Assembly: GCF_944327125.1 (NCBI RefSeq)
Contig: NZ_CALVGO010000007.1
Span: 1 to 41,483 of the forward strand
DNA length: 41,483 nucleotides
Direction: 5' to 3'
From: an uncultured Faecalicoccus sp.
Lineage (GTDB): Bacteria; Bacillota_I; Bacilli_A; Erysipelotrichales; Erysipelotrichaceae
Below, piece by piece: positions 446 through 28,575 of this stretch (positions are counted from its first letter, which is position 1; the number at the start of each line of letters is the position of its first letter). Position numbers and translations under genes: made by a program. The notes under the pieces are model-generated. The model did not search any database. It was not told the origin of the DNA and worked only from the letters and a program-made list of their open reading frames with translations.

Positions 446-2218
446 ATGTATCAGGCACTATACAGAAAATATCGCCCTCAGCGTTTTGAAGATGTTGTGG
501 GACAGAAACATATCATACAAACGTTAAAGAACGCAGTGGATCAAAATCGAATCGCTCATGCCTATTTGTTCTGCGGTCCCAGAGGAACGGGAAAAACTAC
601 GGTGGCGAAGATCTTTGCGAAAATGTTGAATTGTGAAAGTGCAGATCATAAACCGTGCGAAGAGTGCACCAATTGTCAAATGGTACAGAATGGGAATCAT
701 CCGGATATCATTGAAATCGATGCCGCTTCAAACAATGGAGTGGATGAAGTTCGTAATTTGATTGAAAGAGTAAAGTATGCCCCTATGCAGGGAAAATATA
801 AAGTGTATATCATCGATGAGGTCCATATGATGACCACAGGTGCCTTTAATGCTTTATTAAAGACCATTGAAGAGCCCCCGGCTCACGTAGTGTTCATTCT
901 TGCGACAACAGAACCCAACAAGGTTATTTCCACGATCATTTCGCGTTGTCAGCGATTTGATTTCAATAAAGTCTGTTTGGAAGATCTAAAGAACCGTCTT
1001 CAAATTGTCTGTCAGTTGGAAAACATTCAGATTGATGAAGAAGCAATCGCATTGATTGCTCAGCTGAGCGATGGTGGAATGCGTGATGCCCTCTCCATTT
1101 TAGATCAATGCTCGGCTTATTGTGTATCGAAGATCCAGGTCAACGATGTTCGTCAGATCTATGGTGTAATGACCACCGAAGAATTGGGAGATATCTTTTA
1201 TAATCTTTATAAAGGAAAGATTGAAGAAGTCATCAAAGATCTTCAACAGGCTCAGGAAACCGGTATGGATCTCAAGAGAATGACACAGGATCTGATTTCT
1301 TTATTAAAGGACAGTGTAATTCTGGATTATGCATCCAATACAGACCTGGTCACAGAATCGAACAAACAAGTCATAGAAAAAAAGGTAGCACTCTCCCCTG
1401 CTCCTTTCCGTATGCGTGTGCTGGAGGAATTGATAGAAACGTATAATAAATACAATCACGCTTCCAGTGTTTTAGACTATTTAGAAACCGCTCTTTTGAA
1501 ATGTGTATCGGATTCATATGAACAAAAAGAAGAAATCCAGATGGAAAACAAACCTATTCAGAAAGTAGAGATGAATGTTCAATTGGAGAAAAAAGAGGAT
1601 AAATCATATGAATCTCCATCTGAAAAATCAGAAAAAGTTAAAAAAGAGTTAAAAAATGACGATATTTTGGTTAAAAATGAAGAAAATCAAATATCTGATG
1701 TTTCACGTGAAACATTAAAAAGTGAGAAAAAAGACGATCATAAAATCATATTGAACGATGAATATGTGCTTCAGCTCTTGGTGGGAGCAAAGAAATCCGA
1801 ACGGCAAATGGATACTGAAAAAATGAAGAACAACGATCTCTATTTGTCGGATTTGAGTAGTGCTCGTTACGCCTCCAGTTTAAGAAATTGTAAGATCGTG
1901 GCCAGCGGAACGAATTATCTGATTGTAGAAGTAAAATCAGAAATCCAGGCAAAAGAAGTGAATTCGATCCAGCTGGAAGATGGATATGAAAAGTATACAG
2001 AACAACTTTTAGGAATACCGAAGGTTATCTTCGCCCTGGACCCGGTACAGTGCGAGCGAGTGCTCAAAGAGTTTAAAGAAAGAATGAGGGACAATGCCCT
2101 GCCTGAGCCGGCTATTGTGGATATATGCATCAAAGAAGATGAAAACACAACGAAAGAAGAAACAATCGAACAAAAAATGAAACGATGGTTTCCAGGAATT
2201 CAAGTCATAGATGACTGA
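446..2218 (+). CDS. dnaX: DNA polymerase III subunit tau (DnaX)
   Basis: Clamp-loader ATPase that holds the replicase together. From the chosen ATG the protein is 590 residues. It has the P-loop GPRGTGKT at 44-51, a four-Cys zinc module (C63, C71, C74, C77), a Walker B region DEVHMM, and the sensor/arginine-finger motif SRCQRF. After the clamp-loader collar there is a charged, low-complexity linker (about 360-450) and a divergent C-terminal tau domain. The ATG at 446 gives the family start (MYQALYRKYRP) and has GAGG 9 bases upstream; a GTG at 431 is also in frame but has no ribosome site. The linker DNA carries a perfect parS (1699-1714) and two TCATATGA palindromes. An in-frame A AAA AAG heptamer lies at 1378-1384. 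Confidence 0.96.
   Translation: MYQALYRKYRPQRFEDVVGQKHIIQTLKNAVDQNRIAHAYLFCGPRGTGKTTVAKIFAKMLNCESADHKPCEECTNCQMVQNGNHPDIIEIDAASNNGVDEVRNLIERVKYAPMQGKYKVYIIDEVHMMTTGAFNALLKTIEEPPAHVVFILATTEPNKVISTIISRCQRFDFNKVCLEDLKNRLQIVCQLENIQIDEEAIALIAQLSDGGMRDALSILDQCSAYCVSKIQVNDVRQIYGVMTTEELGDIFYNLYKGKIEEVIKDLQQAQETGMDLKRMTQDLISLLKDSVILDYASNTDLVTESNKQVIEKKVALSPAPFRMRVLEELIETYNKYNHASSVLDYLETALLKCVSDSYEQKEEIQMENKPIQKVEMNVQLEKKEDKSYESPSEKSEKVKKELKNDDILVKNEENQISDVSRETLKSEKKDDHKIILNDEYVLQLLVGAKKSERQMDTEKMKNNDLYLSDLSSARYASSLRNCKIVASGTNYLIVEVKSEIQAKEVNSIQLEDGYEKYTEQLLGIPKVIFALDPVQCERVLKEFKERMRDNALPEPAIVDICIKEDENTTKEETIEQKMKRWFPGIQVIDD
1513..1522. repeat. TCATATGA palindrome, copy 1 (in dnaX)
   Basis: TTCATATGAA, a 10-bp perfect palindrome read as Ser-Tyr-Glu within the DnaX linker, 186 bases before the parS. 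It belongs to a local cluster of seven perfect TCATATGA sites between 1514 and 4266. Its function is unknown. Confidence 0.6.
1603..1613. repeat. TCATATGA palindrome, copy 2 (in dnaX)
   Basis: ATCATATGAAT lies 96 bases before the parS and is also read as Ser-Tyr-Glu in the DnaX linker. It shares the longer form ATCATATGAAT with the copies at 3049 and 4259. It is part of the same local cluster and may be a protein-binding site. Confidence 0.6.
1699..1714. promoter_or_regulatory. parS: parS centromere site inside dnaX
   Basis: TGTTTCACGTGAAACA is a perfect 16-bp palindrome and matches the Bacillus subtilis ParB (Spo0J) site TGTTnCACGTGAAACA at every position. It encodes Val-Ser-Arg-Glu-Thr within the variable DnaX linker, where such a sequence can be tolerated. 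I noticed no other CACGTG-centred parS-like sequence in the window. ParB loading here would seed the partition complex and SMC loading, and it suggests an origin-proximal location. The match is seen directly; function is inferred from the family. Confidence 0.88.
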
Positions 2219-2250
2219 TCCTATGAAAAAGAAAGGAATTGAACTGTATA

Positions 2251-2835
2251 ATGTATCCAATAAAATTTGAAAACCTGATTCTTGCCTTTCAAAAACTTCC
2301 GGGAGTAGGAAGAAAAACGGCAGAACGGTATGCCTACGAAACATTGAATTGGAATAAAAACAAGCAGGAAGAGTTTATTCAAGCCATAGAAGTTTTAAAA
2401 GAAGGCATAGAACGCTGTGAAACGTGTGGAAACCTATGTGAAGGACGAATTTGTACGATTTGTGAAGATAAAAATCGAGACACTTCCCTTCTCTGTGTGG
2501 TTCAAAGCCCAAAAGATATAGAGGTTATAGAATCCATTCAGGAATATAACGGATTGTATCATGTATTAAACGGCCTGATCAACACTTCAAAAGGAATTAT
2601 GCCAGAAGACATACGGATTGAAGAACTGATCAAACGCATAGAATCCAATCAAGTGGATGAAGTGATCCTTGCGCTGGATCCGACGCTTGAAGGAGAAACG
2701 ACTTCTATGTACATTGAAAAGCTTGTAGGAGAAAAGGCAAAGGTCACACGATTGGCATATGGCATTCCTATGGGCGGACATTTGGATTATACCGACACAT
2801 TAACACTGTTAAAGGCTTTTCAGGGCCGAAAATAA
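2251..2835 (+). CDS. recR: Recombination mediator RecR
   Basis: Works with RecF and RecO to load RecA on gapped DNA. The 194-residue protein has the N-terminal helix-hairpin-helix (KLPGVGRKTAERYAY), a four-Cys zinc finger (CETC...CTIC) and a Toprim domain with DPTLEGETTS. Length and order match the family. The ATG at 2251 gives the usual N-terminus MYPIKFENL. AAGG at 2233-2236 is rather far from it; an in-frame TTG at 2239 is too close, so the start has some doubt. The gene usually between dnaX and recR (ebfC/ybaB) is absent. Confidence 0.95.
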   Translation: MYPIKFENLILAFQKLPGVGRKTAERYAYETLNWNKNKQEEFIQAIEVLKEGIERCETCGNLCEGRICTICEDKNRDTSLLCVVQSPKDIEVIESIQEYNGLYHVLNGLINTSKGIMPEDIRIEELIKRIESNQVDEVILALDPTLEGETTSMYIEKLVGEKAKVTRLAYGIPMGGHLDYTDTLTLLKAFQGRK

Positions 2836-2850
2836 CCAATATCTTCTCTA

Positions 2851-2858
2851 TCATATGA
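2851..2858. repeat. TCATATGA palindrome, copy 3
   Basis: Perfect TCATATGA, the first copy in the recR downstream gap, 16 bases after the recR stop codon. Confidence 0.6.
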
Positions 2859-2973
2859 AATTTATAGGATAAATCATATTAAATATATGGATTTTATAGA
2901 TTTTATATGATTTTTTATATTCTTTTCACATGGTCTAATGATTTTCTGTAAAGGTAAATTTTAAGCTTTTTTC

Positions 2974-2985
2974 ATTCATATGAAT
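2974..2985. repeat. TCATATGA palindrome, copy 4 (12-bp dyad)
   Basis: ATTCATATGAAT is the longest perfect dyad of the set and is probably closest to the full recognition sequence. Confidence 0.62.
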
Positions 2986-3017
2986 TCAGATTCAAATAAA
3001 AATGTCGTATATTATAT

Positions 3018-3025
3018 TCATATGA
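3018..3025. repeat. TCATATGA palindrome, copy 5
   Basis: Perfect TCATATGA (in context ATTCATATGACT), 31 bases before copy 6. Confidence 0.6.
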
Positions 3026-3047
3026 CTGCAAAAACATCTTTTATTCA

Positions 3048-3058
3048 ATCATATGAAT
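3048..3058. repeat. TCATATGA palindrome, copy 6
   Basis: ATCATATGAAT, the same extended form as the copies at 1603 and 4258. It lies about 190 bases before the start of the HTH/coiled-coil gene. Confidence 0.6.
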
Positions 3059-3186
3059 AAAGAAATACTTAAAAAATACAATAATAAATTCCTGTGATTT
3101 TACATATGAATTGGAACAAATACAAAAATCAAAGAAATTTTAAGATGTGAAATTCCTATGAAACTATGGAAATAAAAAAAGAAGTG

Positions 3187-3195
3187 TGTTAGAAT
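3187..3195 (+). promoter_or_regulatory. Extended -10 promoter for the HTH/coiled-coil gene
   Basis: TGTTAGAAT (TG, one base, TAGAAT at 3190-3195) lies 53 bases before the ATG at 3248. No clear -35 is present. A strong ribosome site (AGGAAGGGGAG) follows, ending a few bases before the start codon. Confidence 0.4.
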
Positions 3196-3247
3196 ATAAA
3201 AACCAAAATAGGATTGGTGTTAGGAAAATCATAGGAAGGGGAGCTTT

Positions 3248-3793
3248 ATGGAAGAAAAAACACCTATTGATGTTTTCTACGACATGGATATTGCACAGAT
3301 TTGTCAGCATTTTTCCAAATCACGAAATACAGTGGATAAGGCCATTGCGAAATTGATCAAAGATAACCCGGATAAAGACTGGAAATACAAGAATCCTGAA
3401 ACACGGCGGATCACGATCAAAGCCGAAGGGGTAGAGCGGTTATCGAAGTATTTCCGCAAGGAGAAACATGAGATTTCAACCGTGGAAATGGAACTTCGCT
3501 TTGAAAATGAAAAATTGAAAGCGATCATTGAAGAAAAAGAAAAGGCTCAAGAACAAATTGAAGCCTTATACCAGGAACGTCTTGCCTTAGAAATTGAGAA
3601 AAGTAAACAGACTTTCTTGTTGGAAAATCAATCGAAGGAAGAACAGATTCAAAAACTTACCTTGGAAAATAATTCCTTAAAAGAAGAAACCGCTGCCTTA
3701 GAAAATATGAGGAAAGAAATCGAAGATTATAAGAAAAAAGAAGAAGAATATAATTCGAAATCCTTCTTCTATCGTTTAACTCATAAATTTTGA
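3248..3793 (+). CDS. HTH plus coiled-coil protein with aromatic/basic tail (RocS/DUF536-like)
   Basis: The gene product is not assigned with certainty. The 181-residue protein has three visible parts. A helix-turn-helix at about 13-33 (IAQICQHFSKSRNTVDKAIAKL) is followed by ITIKAEGVERLSKYF, as in MerR-like/DUF536 domains. A long Glu/Lys/Gln-rich coiled coil covers about 78-170. A short aromatic-basic C-terminus, SFFYRLTHKF, could form an amphipathic membrane-binding helix. This plan matches RocS, the pneumococcal chromosome-segregation protein that binds DNA and the membrane, and plasmid-associated DUF536 proteins. The array of TCATATGA palindromes just upstream and the nearby parS fit a DNA-anchoring role; this is inference. 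A plain autoregulator is the alternative. It converges on the CYTH gene with a 13-base tail overlap. Confidence 0.75.
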   Translation: MEEKTPIDVFYDMDIAQICQHFSKSRNTVDKAIAKLIKDNPDKDWKYKNPETRRITIKAEGVERLSKYFRKEKHEISTVEMELRFENEKLKAIIEEKEKAQEQIEALYQERLALEIEKSKQTFLLENQSKEEQIQKLTLENNSLKEETAALENMRKEIEDYKKKEEEYNSKSFFYRLTHKF

Positions 3794-4335
3794 TATTGAA
3801 ATGCCCTTGCGATCTTGCTGGGGCAATTTTTTTTATATTGTTTATGAATTGGCTCCAAAATCTGATTAAAATAGGAAATTCCATCGTGTTCATATCGATA
3901 TTCATATTCAATTTCGTAATCGGTAGCTTGATCGAATTCTGTGATATCGGCACAGATCTGGGCTTGTTTAAGGTTGAGAACGCTTCGGTACGTTGTGAAA
4001 GAAACGATGGGTTCTACATCCAGTGAAATGTGATGCATCGAACACCATTCCAGAATTTCCGGATCTTTGATCTCTTTTATGGTATCGACATCAATTTGTT
4101 TTTCATATTCATAATGAGTGATGGCATCTTTTTTGATTTTTAAAGTAAAGATGTTCTGGTGATTGATTTTTCGGATTCGAAGCGCTCCGTTACACTTTTT
4201 TATTTGATTGTCTGGTGTATCGTAATATGTATTGGTTTGTTTTATTTGTTTCTCAAAATCATATGAATGGATGATTTTATCATATTCTTCTTTGGTGATA
4301 AGAATTTTGAGTTCTCTTTCTATCGGGTCGTTCAT
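3781..4335 (-). CDS. CYTH-domain phosphohydrolase (YjbK-like)
   Basis: CYTH (CyaB/thiamine triphosphatase) proteins form a beta-tunnel that binds triphosphates or polyphosphate with metal ions. The signature ExExK is seen at the very N-terminus (ERELK), with alternating charged strands such as LRIRKI, TLKIK and YEYEKQI lining the tunnel. Length is 184 residues, normal for the single-domain bacterial type. Start chosen at 4335 because a strong AAAGGAGG lies 7 bases upstream; the frame continues further up but without a site. It is divergent from nadK, a pairing also known in the Bacillus yjb region. Its exact substrate cannot be told from sequence. Confidence 0.87.
   Translation of the reverse strand: MNDPIERELKILITKEEYDKIIHSYDFEKQIKQTNTYYDTPDNQIKKCNGALRIRKINHQNIFTLKIKKDAITHYEYEKQIDVDTIKEIKDPEILEWCSMHHISLDVEPIVSFTTYRSVLNLKQAQICADITEFDQATDYEIEYEYRYEHDGISYFNQILEPIHKQYKKNCPSKIARAFQYQNL
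4258..4268. repeat. TCATATGA palindrome, copy 7 (in CYTH gene)
   Basis: ATCATATGAAT lies inside the 5' part of the CYTH gene. It is the rightmost perfect copy of the cluster; the only other perfect copy found in the window overlaps the start codon of the PocR gene at 19569-19576. Confidence 0.55.
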
Positions 4336-13381: not shown

Positions 13382-16204
13382 ATGGAAAAGAAGACGATCT
13401 CAATCAAAGGAGCTCGTGAAAACAATCTTAAAAATATAGACCTTGAGATCCCAAGAGATAAATTGGTGATCATGACGGGTGTCTCGGGAAGCGGCAAGAC
13501 CAGTCTTGCCTTTGATACGATCTATGCCGAAGGACAAAGGCGTTATATGGAATCGCTGTCGGCCTATGCCCGGCAGTTTTTAGGCAACAGTGAAAAACCG
13601 GATGTCGATCAGATCGACGGTTTATCTCCGGCCATTGCGATCGATCAAAAGACAACGTCAAACAATCCTAGAAGTACGGTAGGAACCGTTACGGAGATCT
13701 ACGATTATCTTCGACTGATGTATGCCCGGATCGGGGTGCCGTATTGCCCGCATCACAATGAACCGATCACTGGCTCTACGATCAAGGAGATGATCGATCG
13801 GATCATGGAACTGGAAGAGGGAACGCGGTGTACGATCTTGTCGCCGGTGGTTTCTGGAAAAAAGGGAACACATAAAGAATTGATCGAGAAACTGATCAAG
13901 GAAGGGTATGTTCGTATTCGTCTGGATGGACAAATCGTATACCTGGAAGAAGTGGAGACTTTAGAAAAGAATAAAAAACACAACATCGATGTCGTGGTGG
14001 ACCGTATCGTGAAATCCGACAACCGTTCCCGGTTTCACGATTCTTTGGAGACCGCTTTGAAACTGAGCGATGGAATGGCGATATTGCTGACGCCAAAGGA
14101 AGAAATCCTTTTTTCCAGCAATTACGCCTGTAAGATCTGCGGATTCAGCGTTCCTAAACTGGAGCCGAAACTGTTCAGCTTTAATGCGCCTTTCGGGGCG
14201 TGTCCGGAGTGTAAAGGCTTAGGCATTACCCAGAAGGTGGATGTTCAGCTTTTGATCCCGGATCCATCGCTTTCGATCGCCCAAGGCGGGATCCGATATT
14301 ATAAAAATATCGTAAATACGGAGAATCTGGAGTGGCAAAGGATGCAGGCCTTGATCGATTTCTACAAGATCGATATCCATACGCCGATCAAAAACCTTCC
14401 AAAAAAGGATCTTGACCATATCTTATACGGTTCGGATGTTCCGATTGCCTATCAGCTTCATTCGCGCGGCGGGATTCATCAGACCAAAAATGAATATATC
14501 GAAGGGGTGATCCCGATGATCGAACGCCGTTATATGGAAACCAACTCGGCCATGTCCCGCGACTGGTATGGTTCTTTTATCGCCGATGCACCTTGCCCTG
14601 TCTGTCATGGGGCCCGTTTGAACCAGCAGGCATTAAGCGTTCGGGTCGGCGGCAAAAACATCTATGAATGGACCCGGATGTCCATTAAAGAAGCATTGGA
14701 GTTTATGAACGACCTGAAATTGACCCCTATGCAGGAAAATATAGCGCATCTGATCATTAAGGAGATCAAAAGCCGTCTGGAGTTCTTGAATCATGTCGGA
14801 TTGAATTATTTGACGCTGGACCGTTTGGCTTCTACGCTCTCCGGCGGGGAAGCTCAGCGAATCCGTCTTGCGACGCAGATTGGTTCTCGTTTGACCGGTG
14901 TCATGTATGTATTGGATGAACCAAGCATCGGACTTCACCAAAGAGATAATGACCGCCTGATCTCCGCTTTAAAGGAAATGCGGGATCTTGGCAATACTTT
15001 GATCGTTGTGGAACACGATGAAGATACCATGAGAGCCAGTGATTATATCGTCGATGTTGGGCCGGGGGCCGGGATCCATGGAGGCCAGATCGTTGCGGCG
15101 GGAACACCGCAGGAGATCATGGACAATGCGGATTCGATCACCGGTGCTTATTTGAGCGGAAGAAAGCGCATCGAAGTACCTTTAAAACGCCGCAAAGGAA
15201 ACGGAAAGAAATTAAGGGTCGTAAAAGCGACGCAGAACAATTTAAAAAATGTAACAGTGGATTTCAAACTCGGAACACTCACCGTTGTCACCGGTGTTTC
15301 CGGATCGGGGAAATCCAGTCTGGTAACCGAAGTGCTGACGCACGGGGTACAAAATGCCCTGGGACGTTTACGGATCAAGCCGGGTGCCTGTAAAGAGATC
15401 AAGGGATTGGAAAACATCGATAAGATCGTTGAGATCTCCCAGGATCCTATTGGCCGGACCCCGCGAAGCAATCCGGCGACCTATACGGGGGTATTTGACG
15501 ATATCCGCGATTTGTTTGCCCAGACCAAAGAGGCAAAGATGCTGGGATACGATAAAGGAAGATTCTCCTTCAATGTAAAAGGGGGACGCTGCGAAGCCTG
15601 TCAGGGTGATGGGATCTTACGGATCTCGATGCATTTCCTTCCGGATGTCTATGTTCCCTGTGATCAGTGTGAAGGAAAGCGTTATAATGAAGAAACTCTG
15701 CAGGTGACTTATAAAGGAAAAAATATAGCGGACGTTTTAGATATGACGGTGGAAGAGGCGCTCGACTTCTTCGGCAATGTTTCCAAGATCCGTCATAAGC
15801 TTCAAACGTTGTATGATGTAGGTTTGTCTTATATTAAATTAGGTCAAAGCGCGACAACGCTCTCGGGCGGAGAGGCTCAGCGTGTCAAACTGGCCAGTGA
15901 ACTGCAGAAGAAGGCGACAGGAAAAACATTGTTTGTGCTGGATGAACCGACAACAGGGCTTCACAGTGACGATGTGAAGAAACTGATCGAAGTTCTTCAG
16001 CGGCTTGTGGATCATGGTGACACGGTCATTGTGATCGAACACAATCTGGATGTGATCAAATGTGCGGACCAGATCATCGATATTGGTCCTGAAGGCGGAC
16101 AGGAAGGCGGAACGATCTTAGTGAGCGGGACGCCGGAACAAGTGGCCGCCTGCAAGCAGAGTTATACAGGAAGATACTTAAGGCCTTTACTGGAAAGGAA
16201 GTGA
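13382..16204 (+). CDS. uvrA: Excinuclease ABC subunit UvrA
   Basis: DNA-damage-sensing ATPase of nucleotide excision repair. The 940-residue protein has two ABC modules. The first has Walker A GVSGSGKT at 33-40 and signature LSGGEAQRIRLATQIGS; the second has GVSGSGKSSLV and LSGGEAQRVKLASEL. Zinc modules are seen in CKICGF...CPECKG and CEACQGDG...CDQCEG. GTG and two ATG codons precede the chosen ATG in frame (13373-13379). AGG at 13371-13373 best serves 13382, but 13379 is possible. uvrB is not adjacent in this window. It probably leads an operon with hprK, lgt::ppaX and trxB. Confidence 0.96.
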   Translation: MEKKTISIKGARENNLKNIDLEIPRDKLVIMTGVSGSGKTSLAFDTIYAEGQRRYMESLSAYARQFLGNSEKPDVDQIDGLSPAIAIDQKTTSNNPRSTVGTVTEIYDYLRLMYARIGVPYCPHHNEPITGSTIKEMIDRIMELEEGTRCTILSPVVSGKKGTHKELIEKLIKEGYVRIRLDGQIVYLEEVETLEKNKKHNIDVVVDRIVKSDNRSRFHDSLETALKLSDGMAILLTPKEEILFSSNYACKICGFSVPKLEPKLFSFNAPFGACPECKGLGITQKVDVQLLIPDPSLSIAQGGIRYYKNIVNTENLEWQRMQALIDFYKIDIHTPIKNLPKKDLDHILYGSDVPIAYQLHSRGGIHQTKNEYIEGVIPMIERRYMETNSAMSRDWYGSFIADAPCPVCHGARLNQQALSVRVGGKNIYEWTRMSIKEALEFMNDLKLTPMQENIAHLIIKEIKSRLEFLNHVGLNYLTLDRLASTLSGGEAQRIRLATQIGSRLTGVMYVLDEPSIGLHQRDNDRLISALKEMRDLGNTLIVVEHDEDTMRASDYIVDVGPGAGIHGGQIVAAGTPQEIMDNADSITGAYLSGRKRIEVPLKRRKGNGKKLRVVKATQNNLKNVTVDFKLGTLTVVTGVSGSGKSSLVTEVLTHGVQNALGRLRIKPGACKEIKGLENIDKIVEISQDPIGRTPRSNPATYTGVFDDIRDLFAQTKEAKMLGYDKGRFSFNVKGGRCEACQGDGILRISMHFLPDVYVPCDQCEGKRYNEETLQVTYKGKNIADVLDMTVEEALDFFGNVSKIRHKLQTLYDVGLSYIKLGQSATTLSGGEAQRVKLASELQKKATGKTLFVLDEPTTGLHSDDVKKLIEVLQRLVDHGDTVIVIEHNLDVIKCADQIIDIGPEGGQEGGTILVSGTPEQVAACKQSYTGRYLRPLLERK

Positions 16205-16208
16205 AATC

Positions 16209-17186
16209 ATGCCGCAAGAAACACAGCCAACGATCAGCGTTAGAGATTTGGCCGCAAAATTCGCATGGGAGCAAGTAACAGGAGACGAAAACAGTCTGAA
16301 AAGACGGCTCGTCACCGCGGAAACCAACCGTCCCGGGCTGGAATTGACGGGTTATTTTCCCAATACAGTAGCCAAACGATTAACGATTTTAGGCGATAAA
16401 GAAATTCTATATATTGACCAGGAAATGGATGAAGTTTCACAGCGAAAAAGCTTTGAATTTTTAACCGGGGAGAATACTCCGGCCATTGTGATCGCCCATG
16501 GACACCAGTGTCCGCCGATACTGGCCGAAATTGCGATCCGTAAAAACTTTCCCATCTTTAAAACAGCGGTGGAAACCGCGCATACGATCGTAAATGTGAC
16601 CAACTATCTGGATGAAAGACTGGCTCATTCCATCATTATCCACGGCGAATTGATGCAGATATATGGAGTTGGGGTCATGATCACCGGAGATTCCGGAATG
16701 GGGAAAAGCGAGATTGCTCTGGAATTGATCAAAAAAGGACATCAGCTGGTAGCGGATGACCGCATTGACTGTTATCGGATCCATAATGTTCTGGTAGGAA
16801 GAACCCCAAAGATGTTAGAAGGATTTATGGAACTTCGAGGAGTCGGCATCATCAACATCGGCCGTATGTATGGCGTAGGGGCCTTTGCCCATCAGACCAA
16901 TATCGATTTTCAGATCGAACTGGTTTCTTTTGACGGAGAAGAAGAATACGACCGTGTCGGGATCGAAGAGAAAGAGTACTCTGAGATCATGGGCGTCAAG
17001 ATCTTGAAGATGCGTATCCCGGTCAGCGGCGGCCGTCCGATGTCTGCCATCATTGAAACCGCGGTGACCAACTATCTTCTGCTTCAGGATGGATTTGATT
17101 CTGCCAAGGAATTTGAAGAGATCGTACTGAAAAAGATCGCTGAGAACAAGGAAGGTAACGACGATGAGTCTGTTTCCGGATACTAA
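16209..17186 (+). CDS. hprK: HPr kinase/phosphorylase
   Basis: Master sensor of Gram-positive carbon catabolite repression. It phosphorylates HPr on Ser46 with ATP or pyrophosphate and removes it by phosphorolysis, releasing pyrophosphate. The 325-residue protein has an N-terminal domain and a C-terminal catalytic domain with P-loop GDSGMGKS at 160-167, followed by ADDRID, the family signature LRGVGIINI and IPVSGGRPMSAI. It overlaps the next gene by 23 bases; that gene encodes the pyrophosphatase that removes its product. Confidence 0.96.
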   Translation: MPQETQPTISVRDLAAKFAWEQVTGDENSLKRRLVTAETNRPGLELTGYFPNTVAKRLTILGDKEILYIDQEMDEVSQRKSFEFLTGENTPAIVIAHGHQCPPILAEIAIRKNFPIFKTAVETAHTIVNVTNYLDERLAHSIIIHGELMQIYGVGVMITGDSGMGKSEIALELIKKGHQLVADDRIDCYRIHNVLVGRTPKMLEGFMELRGVGIINIGRMYGVGAFAHQTNIDFQIELVSFDGEEEYDRVGIEEKEYSEIMGVKILKMRIPVSGGRPMSAIIETAVTNYLLLQDGFDSAKEFEEIVLKKIAENKEGNDDESVSGY

Positions 17187-18621
17187 GGTGATCCTTTCCT
17201 TTGGCGGATTTCATATTACCTGGTATGCCGTACTGATTTTGACCGGCGTGATCATTGCCTATATTCTGGCACAAAAGACGGTAAAAAAGTGGGGGTATTC
17301 CAGTGCGCTTTTAGAAGATTACGTGATTCCGATGATGGTTTTGTCGATCTTGGGCGCAAGAGCGTATTATGTGATCTTTGAATGGGATTTTTACAGTTCC
17401 CATCCCGATCAGATCCTTGCCATATGGAATGGCGGCCTGGCCATCTATGGCGGATTGATCGTAGGCGTTCTTTACAGTGTTTATTATTTTAAAAAGCGAA
17501 ACGTCAGCATTCTTAGAATGTTTGATGCGATCATGCCCGGGGTCATGGTGGCCCAGGCTTTTGGCCGCTGGGGCAACTTTATGAATCAGGAAGCCTTTGG
17601 GAAGATCGTCGATGAAAGTTACTTTGATCTTTTTCCGGGCTTCATCAAAGACCAGATGTATATTCAGGGGGCCTATAGAGAACCAACATTCTTATATGAA
17701 AGCATGGGCAATATCTTAGGCTTTCTTTTTATCTATTTTATTTTCCGGAAGAAGTTTTACCGCCATCGCGGGGACTGCGGTTTTATGTACTGTGTCTGGT
17801 ATGGGGCTCTGCGCTTTTTTGTCGAAGGGCTTCGCACCGATTCTTTGATGATAGGACCGCTCCGGGTATCGCAGCTGGTATCCATCGTGATCATTGGGAT
17901 CGGTATCCTGGGATTAAGCGGCATCCTGCACAAGCTTTTTCACTGGTATAAAAAACCCGTTCTTCTTTTTGATCTGGATGGAACGCTGCAGGATTCAAAA
18001 CATCTTGTATTTGAAACGTTTAAAGAAGTTTTCCATAAGTTAAAACCGGACCTTGTCTTAAGTGAAGAAGAATTGTATTCCTTTTTTGGACCGACATTGG
18101 AAGAAACGTTTGGCCGCTACTTCAAACCGGAAGATATCGAAAACGTGATCGAAGAATACCAGAAGATCAATCGAAGACTCCATAACGATCTTTTGAAAGC
18201 CATGCCGGGCGCTTTTGAGACCGTTTCGACATTGAAGGAACAAGGATATGCGATGGCAGTGGTATCCAACAAGCGGATCGCGGTCGTACAAATGGGATTA
18301 AAAGCGGTGGGACTGGAACCCTACTTTGATATAGTGCTGGGAAAAGAACAGCTTCCGGAACCTAAACCGAGTCCTTCCGGACTTTTGAAAGCATGTGAGT
18401 TGATGAAAACGGGACATGATGATGTAATCTATGTAGGCGACAACGTGACAGACATTGTCTGTGCCAAAAATATGGCCGCCTATTCGATTGGTTTCAGTAA
18501 CGATCCTTATCAAAGAGAAAAACAAGCCAAGGCCCATCCGTGTGCCCAGATACAGGATCTTAGAGAACTGATAGAACTTTGTAAGGAGGAAAAAGCATGG
18601 AGCGACAATACGATTTGGTAA
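17164..18621 (+). CDS. Lgt-PpaX fusion: lipoprotein diacylglyceryl transferase plus HAD pyrophosphatase
   Basis: One 485-residue frame joins two enzymes. Residues 1 to about 262 are Lgt, the membrane enzyme that adds diacylglycerol to the lipobox Cys of prolipoproteins. It has several hydrophobic segments and the signature GRWGNFMNQEAFG (134-146). The E. coli HGGL His is Tyr here (AIYGGL), a change I recall in other Firmicutes. Residues about 265-485 are a HAD phosphatase of PpaX length, with DLDGT (Asp270, Asp272), SNKR, a PKPSPSG lysine region and GDNVTD. In Bacillus hprK, lgt and ppaX are neighbouring separate genes. The Lgt C-terminus should face the cytoplasm, so the phosphatase would be tethered at the inner membrane surface. 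No stop or internal start with a ribosome site is evident at the junction. Confidence 0.9.
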   Translation: MSLFPDTKVILSFGGFHITWYAVLILTGVIIAYILAQKTVKKWGYSSALLEDYVIPMMVLSILGARAYYVIFEWDFYSSHPDQILAIWNGGLAIYGGLIVGVLYSVYYFKKRNVSILRMFDAIMPGVMVAQAFGRWGNFMNQEAFGKIVDESYFDLFPGFIKDQMYIQGAYREPTFLYESMGNILGFLFIYFIFRKKFYRHRGDCGFMYCVWYGALRFFVEGLRTDSLMIGPLRVSQLVSIVIIGIGILGLSGILHKLFHWYKKPVLLFDLDGTLQDSKHLVFETFKEVFHKLKPDLVLSEEELYSFFGPTLEETFGRYFKPEDIENVIEEYQKINRRLHNDLLKAMPGAFETVSTLKEQGYAMAVVSNKRIAVVQMGLKAVGLEPYFDIVLGKEQLPEPKPSPSGLLKACELMKTGHDDVIYVGDNVTDIVCAKNMAAYSIGFSNDPYQREKQAKAHPCAQIQDLRELIELCKEEKAWSDNTIW

Positions 18622-19511: not shown

Positions 19512-19572
19512 TATGTAAAGGCTTTCGTTTTATATGAAAAAATGCTTTAATATAAATATCGAGGTGAGTCAT

Positions 19573-20073
19573 ATGAACGCAATGGATGCAATCAATAAAG
19601 CGATGAACGCTTATCATGAGATCACAGGACTGCATAGCTATTTTGTACAGAATGAAGCGGATATCGTCAGTGCCAGTGCCAAGGAAAAAAATTTTTTCTG
19701 TAAATGTTTAAAGACCAGCACATCGGCCTTGAAACACTGTGATGAATGTACGGTGGAAAATTATACTCAGGCTCTTCAATCCAACAAAGTGCAGACGTAT
19801 TCCTGTCATGCGGGACTTGTCAAATGGTCCGTTCCTGTCAACATCAAAGGTTTGAAAGGCGTCATCATTTCGGAAGGTGTTATTTCCAAACAGCAGGTGG
19901 AGGAAAGTCAGGACTGGATATCTTATCTGTCAGAAAAATACAATGTATCAAAGTCGATCTTATTGGAGAATTATAATCAGGTCGTACAAATGACAGAGGA
20001 ACAAGTGGATCGAACCATTCAGCTGTTCCAGGATATTCTGTCTTATTATGCATCGACGGTGGACGAAGACTAA
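19573..20073 (+). CDS. Stand-alone PocR-domain sensory protein
   Basis: The 166-residue protein matches the PocR ligand-binding domain: FFCKCLKTSTSALKHCDEC, then Tyr-Ser-Cys-His-Ala-Gly (YSCHAG), then WSVPVNIKGLKGVIISEG. In other proteins this domain sits before an AraC-type HTH or a histidine kinase. Here no output domain is visible; the C-terminus is a short helical segment. Five Cys (FCKC, HCDEC, SCH) could bind metal or respond to redox, which is inference. The start at 19573 has GAGGTGA 5 bases upstream; an upstream ATG at 19534 has no site. It follows trxB by 61 bases and ends at a strong terminator. A TCATATGA sequence spans the start codon. Confidence 0.82.
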   Translation: MNAMDAINKAMNAYHEITGLHSYFVQNEADIVSASAKEKNFFCKCLKTSTSALKHCDECTVENYTQALQSNKVQTYSCHAGLVKWSVPVNIKGLKGVIISEGVISKQQVEESQDWISYLSEKYNVSKSILLENYNQVVQMTEEQVDRTIQLFQDILSYYASTVDED

Positions 20074-27573: not shown

Positions 27574-27606
27574 ATGGTTTTTCGTTTTTCCGTCGTATGT
27601 ATATAT

Positions 27607-28575
27607 ATGAAGAACAAAAATACGAGATTGTTGGATACTTTGGAACAAAAACGAAACGCCTACGATGAATGTTGTAAGAAGATCTTACTGGATCCTCAAA
27701 TCATGGCATATATCTTGAAGGAGTGCGTTAACGAGCTGAGTTGTTTTTCCCGAAAAGAAATTGAACATCTTCTTTGTACAAACATGGTGATCGGGAATAC
27801 AGAAGACCTTACTGTGTCCGGGGCAAAAGTTTGTTTTGACATTTGTTTTCAGATCCCTGATAAAAATTTGATCATTGATCTGGAAGCACAGAGTAAAGAC
27901 CCTTCTGCATATCCTCTTCTTTCCAGAGCCATATATTATGGAAATCGTTTATTGGATGGACAAATCGAAGAAAGATACGGGTCGTTTAGAAAAGTCTATT
28001 CGATATGGATCTTACTGGATCCGGCCAGAGATGGAGGAAATGTGATCAATGTTTATAGAGTGAACGAAAAAACAATGTTAAAGGAATATAAGGGGAACGA
28101 AGCGTATTATGATTTGGTTTGTATTGTTATGATCGGTGTTCCAAAAGAGAATGAGGAGCCAATGAATGAGCTGATGGGGTTATTGCAGGTGTTGTTTGTG
28201 AAAAATCAGGAGGTTGAATATATAAAAACGACACTCATACAAAAATATGGTATACTATTGACAAAGGAACTGGATCAGGAGGTGGATGCGATGTGTAACT
28301 GGAGTGAGGTAGTGTATCAAAATGCCATGCGAAAAGGAATGCAGGAGGGCATGCAGAAAGGAATGCAGAAAGGTATCCAGAAAGGAATGCAGGAAGGTAT
28401 CCAGAAAGGCATCCAAAGAGGAATGGACAAAGGGATCCAAAAAGGAAATCGTGACAGCGCGCTCCTTCATACAAAAAAAATCATGGAAAGATTTTTGATC
28501 GGTCCGCAAGAGGCAATGGATGTGCTGGATATACAGGGACAATTGCGAGAAGATCTGTTGAAAGAGTTAGAATAA
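27607..28575 (+). CDS. Rpn-family (PD-(D/E)XK) nuclease with Gly-Met-Gln-Lys repeats
   Basis: Proteins of this family (formerly called YhgA-like transposase) are RecA-independent recombination-promoting nucleases. The 322-residue protein shows the core FDICFQIPDKNLIIDLEAQ, with candidate catalytic Asp78, Glu93 and Gln95. Near the C-terminus (about 238-280) is a run of tetrapeptides of the type KGMQ/KGIQ/EGMQ, often seen in these proteins. No ribosome site is visible before the ATG at 27607, and an upstream in-frame start would overlap the trxA terminator, so expression may be low. It stands alone between two terminators and beside a tRNA gene. Confidence 0.8.
   Translation: MKNKNTRLLDTLEQKRNAYDECCKKILLDPQIMAYILKECVNELSCFSRKEIEHLLCTNMVIGNTEDLTVSGAKVCFDICFQIPDKNLIIDLEAQSKDPSAYPLLSRAIYYGNRLLDGQIEERYGSFRKVYSIWILLDPARDGGNVINVYRVNEKTMLKEYKGNEAYYDLVCIVMIGVPKENEEPMNELMGLLQVLFVKNQEVEYIKTTLIQKYGILLTKELDQEVDAMCNWSEVVYQNAMRKGMQEGMQKGMQKGIQKGMQEGIQKGIQRGMDKGIQKGNRDSALLHTKKIMERFLIGPQEAMDVLDIQGQLREDLLKELE
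28325..28449 (+). repeat. 12-base tandem repeat in the Rpn gene
   Basis: About ten imperfect 12-base units (forms of AAAGGAATGCAG and AAAGGTATCCAG) encode the Lys-Gly-Met/Ile-Gln repeats. The units differ mainly at the ATG/ATC and GAG/AAA codons. Copy number is likely to vary by slippage. Confidence 0.8.

Follow-up and report, generated by a model that had tools for sequence, protein, structure and literature searches.

A conserved winged helix-turn-helix protein with a gene-proximal palindrome cluster near the replication origin of some Erysipelotrichaceae: a candidate chromosome-to-membrane tether

The open reading frame at 3248-3793 (forward strand) of the window, a 41,483-nucleotide stretch that makes up contig C7 of a 1.42-Mb draft genome with Faecalicoccus species as its nearest named relatives, is a real, conserved gene of this Faecalicoccus-group genome (Erysipelotrichaceae). 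It encodes 181 aa from an ATG start, with GGAAGGGGAG upstream, and its product is read, at a probability of roughly 60%, as a chromosomal one-protein tether of Par/RocS-like type that binds origin-proximal sites and anchors these to the membrane. Site binding, dimerisation, membrane binding by the tail and a role in segregation are what we infer for the protein, with the TCATATGA palindromes around its gene probably serving as its binding sites. The gene and the parts of its product are as follows.

3248-3793, + strand: gene of the 181-aa winged helix-turn-helix (wHTH), coiled-coil and tail protein (open reading frame, orthologues, AlphaFold2 model)
3281-3463, + strand: winged HTH, residues 12-72, best solved match 8csh, then RacA (AlphaFold2 model, VIA-align)
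3479-3757, + strand: one long helix, residues 78-170, predicted to form a coiled coil and of varying length among relatives (alignment, model)
3758-3790, + strand: conserved tail KSFFYRLTHKF, residues 171-181, a possible MinD-like membrane helix (alignment, helical-moment tests)

Counting the source genome each time, 8 of 41 genomes and 23 of 195 Erysipelotrichaceae genomes have an orthologue, the gene being kept in ten genera of the latter sample. The 22 named loci with an orthologue belong to Faecalicoccus, Holdemanella, Faecalitalea, Floccifex, Catenisphaera, Ileibacterium, Absicoccus, Allobaculum and unnamed Erysipelotrichaceae. A class-wide search at E 0.001 gave matches in 3 of 296 genomes, including the query's own and a doubtful one; the weak match in G126 from this search (E 2.8e-5, 547-aa frame) was taken as a coiled-coil cross-match. 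Wherever the flanks could be mapped, the gene occupied the interval between recR and a CYTH gene, and carrier contigs of sufficient length showed the order tadA-dnaX-recR-gene-CYTH-nadK-rodA-mutS-mutL-miaA, the neighbour names in these contigs and in the relative OPF54 being assigned by reading the sequences. Open reading frames in the recR-CYTH interval of non-carriers look, as judged by reading, unrelated to the 181-aa protein. All 20 carriers in a 37-row DnaX+RecR tree formed one clade on a long branch (100% SH-aLRT). A plasmid ancestor is not supported, since tblastn against 72,556 plasmid records returned no match, and searches of open-access literature listed nothing on the protein's family. 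The gene of Allobaculum sp. Allo2 (L102:10001-10655) reads for 60 aa and then leaves the frame, for which reason L102 was excluded from protein alignments; broken copies were also seen in L132, L133 and L135 (G424), and all of these are either pseudogenes or sequencing errors.

The place of the gene is origin-proximal. The window's own genome being too fragmented, the distance was taken from OPF54, in which dnaA begins at base 101, about 14.7 kb from the gene at 14,766. The order from dnaA is dnaN, recF, gyrB, gyrA, serS, tadA, dnaX, recR and the gene, and ParB is located 22 kb away on the other side. With the recR-CYTH place kept among relatives as well, the conserved chromosomal setting near the origin that the earlier note had proposed was borne out, as was its claim of a parS at about 1.5 kb.

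1699-1714, unstranded: perfect parS TGTTTCACGTGAAACA, in dnaX, 1.53 kb upstream of the gene start (motif search)

Any match at up to two mismatches was seen in just 2 of 100 shuffles. In most carriers a parS in dnaX is separated from the gene by 1.4-2.8 kb; it is also present in some non-carriers and hence is not carrier-specific. Elsewhere in the window, an RNA-family search returned one tRNA and nothing else, and three open reading frames stood out when their translations were read: 17164-18621, a single 485-aa frame in which an Lgt-like prolipoprotein diacylglyceryl transferase is apparently fused to a HAD-type phosphatase; 19534-20073, a small frame whose product resembles an isolated PocR-type sensory domain and which adjoins a thioredoxin reductase gene; and 27574-28575, similar to transposase-type proteins of the Rpn/PD-(D/E)XK kind and bearing a GMQKGIQ-like repeat run near its end.

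Membership of the DUF536 family was rejected for the protein, as PF04394 (DUF536/RocS-like_C) gave no row for it at E up to 10, no match in the proteins of two relatives at E up to 1 and none in any of 41 genomes, with both controls matching (Lactococcus lactis for the genomes; pSK1 Par with 27.3 bits against a cut-off of 20.7, E 3e-6). A DUF536 search of 296 genomes of the class gave one match, in a 1,104-aa frame, which was left unused. Nothing in Pfam, NCBIfam or PHROGs scored above cut-off for the 181-aa protein; PHROGs returned weak coiled-coil matches only, and no ParB or Noc model was among the NCBIfam rows at E up to 10. The commonest weak profile match was HTH_36 (19 of 20 members, best E 0.0013). 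BLASTP against pSK1 Par gave E 0.64, hhalign against Par proteins aligned 23 HTH columns at 23% probability, and any kinship to RocS or Par at the level of sequence would amount to a weak HTH match at most.

The AlphaFold2 model, made with 20 aligned relatives, has a winged HTH from which a single helix runs on to the C-terminus (pTM 0.41; pLDDT 83 on average and low in the tail), with helices at residues 15-22 and 26-39, strands at 46-48 and 55-57 and the single helix at 59-180. Together with the relatives' alignment, it confirmed the layout of HTH, coiled coil and tail that had been proposed: the HTH is where it had been placed (about residues 13-33), in a range slightly short as the wing extends to about 57, and 78-170 is a fair description of the coiled coil. 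The HTH is nearly invariant among relatives (mean column identity 86%), and so, despite variation in coiled-coil length, is the tail pattern [KR]-[SG]-[FL]-F-Y-R-L-[TLF]-H-K-[FIL]. The top solved match of the HTH was the pSK1 Par DNA-binding domain on centromere DNA (8csh_A), with VIA-align Z scores of 7.7 and 7.9 (the latter at rmsd 1.4, 52 of 53 residues aligned), in a range below 8 that can reflect a common structural arrangement. RacA (5i41, 5i44) came behind at Z 6.2-7.3, scores that ParA2 N-domains, IF2 and MerR regulators equalled or narrowly missed; in the round that gave Z 7.9, RacA scored 6.4 and all other rows except 8csh_A at most 6.8. Foldseek placed RacA among its first seven rows at E 0.17 or worse. 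Because 8csh ranks first and RacA next, at modest Z and E values, the predicted fold is called Par/RacA/MerR-like with modest statistics. Of the earlier description as RocS/DUF536-like, the architecture stood up to structure prediction, with an HTH fold of the pSK1 Par/RacA type, and the DUF536 label fell with the profile search for PF04394. A tail with no helical amphipathicity, named in the note as an outcome that would refute its reading, was not seen, but the hydrophobic moment of 0.52 is unexceptional for the tail's composition, being equalled by 17% of its own shuffles. This measure does not discriminate between tails, since that of pSK1 Par scores lower still (0.16); a score of likeness to the pSK1 Par tail was reached by 10% of shuffles.

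Stronger evidence, overlooked in the earlier note, is a cognate-looking cluster of TCATATGA and the loss of noc. The palindrome occurs eight times in the window against 1.2 expected, a number reached in none of 100 shuffles, and seven of the eight copies fall at 1514-4266, within 2.75 kb. The whole genome contains 36 copies, and 7 of the reversed control pattern. The gene-proximal copies, none with a strand assigned, are listed below (motif count for exact copies, motif search for those with one mismatch).

1514-1521: TCATATGA, in dnaX
1604-1611: TCATATGA, in dnaX
2851-2858: TCATATGA, in the interval between recR and the gene
2976-2983: TCATATGA, recR-gene interval
3018-3025: TCATATGA, recR-gene interval
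3049-3056: TCATATGA, recR-gene interval
3101-3110: one-mismatch copy TACATATGAA
3153-3162: one-mismatch copy TTCCTATGAA, immediately before a promoter-like site
4259-4266: TCATATGA, in the CYTH gene

The cluster recurs, with at least three copies no more than 3 kb from the gene in 19 of the 22 named loci, the exceptions being L093 (a cut contig that starts 143 bp upstream of the gene), L098 and L101. At least one copy lies within 800 bp upstream of the gene in 18 of 20 loci, and a copy at +1.0-1.2 kb, which falls within CYTH in the window, is found in 15 of 20; L082, L086, L087, L093, L098 and L101 were excluded from one or more of the site counts as near copies, cut contigs or off-centre loci. 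OPF54, a single 3.15-Mb contig, has 12 of its 76 copies no more than 15 kb from the gene, where 0.7 would be expected, and two further pairs at 49 and 93-97 kb. Among all 4-base inverted repeats with gaps of 0-8 in 14 loci, TCAT/ATGA with gap 0 was the most enriched close to the gene (96 in 59 kb near, 47 in 219 kb far), and an unbiased word enrichment put TCATATGA first or nearly first in carrier contigs except G006. A logo from 146 sites showed a weak flanking A/T preference. In the Allobaculum/RD49/S17M branch the palindrome is sparse (0-3 copies no more than 3 kb from the gene) and TTCATATT-type half-sites are enriched, the enriched words ATATGAAT and AATATGAA being half-sites of the TCATATGA palindrome. 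These two words replace the palindrome in L098, L100, L101 and L102, where the recognition helix is unchanged, a shift that possibly represents a change of co-operativity or spacing.

Homologous places in non-carriers served as a control. Carriers held 142 copies of TCATATGA in 280 kb (14 loci), 55 of them within 1 kb upstream of the gene, and non-carriers 13 copies in 303 kb (17 loci, 0-2 each); the cluster is thus restricted to carriers of the gene. Ownership of the cluster by some other DNA-binding protein, with the gene there by chance, is a very improbable explanation, as gene and cluster occur together in 19 of 22 loci, are both absent from the homologous place in 17 non-carriers, and site density is at its maximum directly upstream of the gene. 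That same maximum, and the promoter-like site at 3167-3195 (the promoter count being no higher than in shuffles), would suit a conventional transcription factor that controls its own gene and a small regulon, with the TCATATGA sites as its operators. Such a factor was nonetheless judged quite improbable, since many of the sites lie in coding DNA (dnaX and CYTH in the window) and the protein has no effector domain, just a long coiled coil and the nearly invariant tail. Open reading frames no more than 7 kb away in 17 loci contained 67 coding copies, compared with a mean of 28.5, itself raised by composition, and a maximum of 38 over 300 synonymous shuffles, which establishes DNA-level selection on the sites in coding regions. 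Genome-wide totals showed no clear difference between 19 carriers and 28 non-carriers, and the special feature is therefore position rather than number; a Noc-like scatter of TCATATGA around the genome was not seen in this comparison.

None of 23 carriers had a TIGR04285 match of Noc grade (hand count, E 1e-79 or better), against 152 of 172 non-carriers. The threshold was chosen after the table had been seen, and some genuine Noc proteins escape it: gene order shows noc in G020 and G021 although they fall below it, and the 20 non-carriers counted as lacking a match include G019 and G264, which gave no candidates and are probably unreadable. Carriers had one strong origin ParB in a ParB search, non-carriers mostly two. 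Gene order, traced with query proteins of G002 and G010, was rsmG-soj-spo0J, with no space for noc, in all six readable carriers, and rsmG-noc-soj-spo0J in 14 of 15 non-carriers; the carrier pieces L154 and the OPF54 end gave no rows. The exception, G012 (L141), is a non-carrier with neither noc nor the gene, and loss of noc alone therefore seems to be tolerated. Because the carriers form one clade, the gene may have been gained and noc lost on the same branch; the two changes count as one event, and a Fisher p for their mutual exclusion overstates the evidence. The sequence TTTCCCGGGAAA, which we take to be the Noc site, occurred 0 times in 701 kb of carriers and 3 times in 423 kb of non-carriers, too few for use.

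These observations raise the alternative that the 181-aa protein takes the place of Noc: bound to DNA and tethered to the membrane, it would keep FtsZ away from the nucleoid or control initiation and would not act in origin segregation. Both the match counts and the gene orders speak for it, as does the description of Noc as likewise bringing its own sites to the membrane via an amphipathic helix (PMC4331003). It is unlikely all the same: gain and loss on one branch may be coincidence, at least one non-carrier (G012) does without either gene, and the sites of Noc are dispersed around the chromosome (PMC4331003), whereas TCATATGA is special in the origin cluster only. Noc also differs in belonging to the ParB family, to which the 181-aa protein has no match, although the role as a DNA-to-membrane linker would be the one proposed here. 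An exchange that joins the two ideas can be offered tentatively, and with some doubt: in one lineage of Erysipelotrichaceae, Noc may have given way to a domesticated partition protein of plasmid type, a Par-like tether that has a chromosomal centromere of its own over parS and would have taken on the membrane-anchoring and possibly the division-blocking job, the sites having evolved in core genes after the gene arrived.

A dimeric tether between the origin-proximal site cluster and the membrane, the preferred reading, is suggested by analogy with the repeats upstream of pSK1 par, the Par tail and the membrane behaviour of the RocS tail. Par of pSK1 (WP_002484560.1), described as a single-protein partition system (PMC11500499), shares the wHTH fold (8csh), a coiled coil and a short, basic-hydrophobic tail (KKGFWSRLFGG), and five copies of a 13-base repeat lie directly upstream of its gene, as TCATATGA does here. 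The repeat itself differs, being TTTTACCACCTAA-like at pSK1 par, and the 181-aa protein is chromosomal, without the DUF536 segment and without a significant sequence match to Par. RocS of Streptococcus pneumoniae, whose own wHTH resembles pSK1 Par and RacA (PMC11500499), is chromosomal and has the same plan of wHTH, coiled coil and C-terminal anchor (PMC11500499; PMC13042908). Its oligomerisation is required for the MinD-like tail to hold the membrane (PMC11500499), and the tail inserts as a kink-helix (PMC13042908). Compared by its published description, RocS differs from the 181-aa protein, which lacks DUF536 and has a conserved site cluster; a text search of PMC11500499 for 'parS', 'sequence-specific' and 'non-specific' gave no match. 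Carriers possess soj (ParA), unlike the pneumococcus, which is without ParA (PMC11500499). RacA of Bacillus subtilis has a MerR-like wHTH (5i41, 5i44), a coiled coil and repetitive centromere-like sequences (PMC11500499) comparable to the site cluster, but its sites and tail are different and its anchor is DivIVA (PMC11500499).

On the tether model, dimers would form through the coiled coil and their winged HTHs would bind the TCATATGA palindromes (half-site TTCATAT), at sites that would be densest around the promoter of the gene itself and become sparser across about 10-15 kb to each side, beside parS and near oriC. The C-terminal tails would hold the resulting nucleoprotein patch at the membrane, where it could help to place or separate sister origins alongside ParABS, and the promoter sites would provide autoregulation of the gene.

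How tethering of the RocS type drives segregation without an energy-consuming partner is called an open question in PMC11500499. The TCATATGA cluster makes the tether reading testable, and the family of the 181-aa protein would offer a clearly delimited candidate centromere, open to relocation, deletion and assays in vitro. The carriers are also a natural example of bacteria that lack noc and possess another candidate for linking DNA to the membrane, one of unrelated structure.
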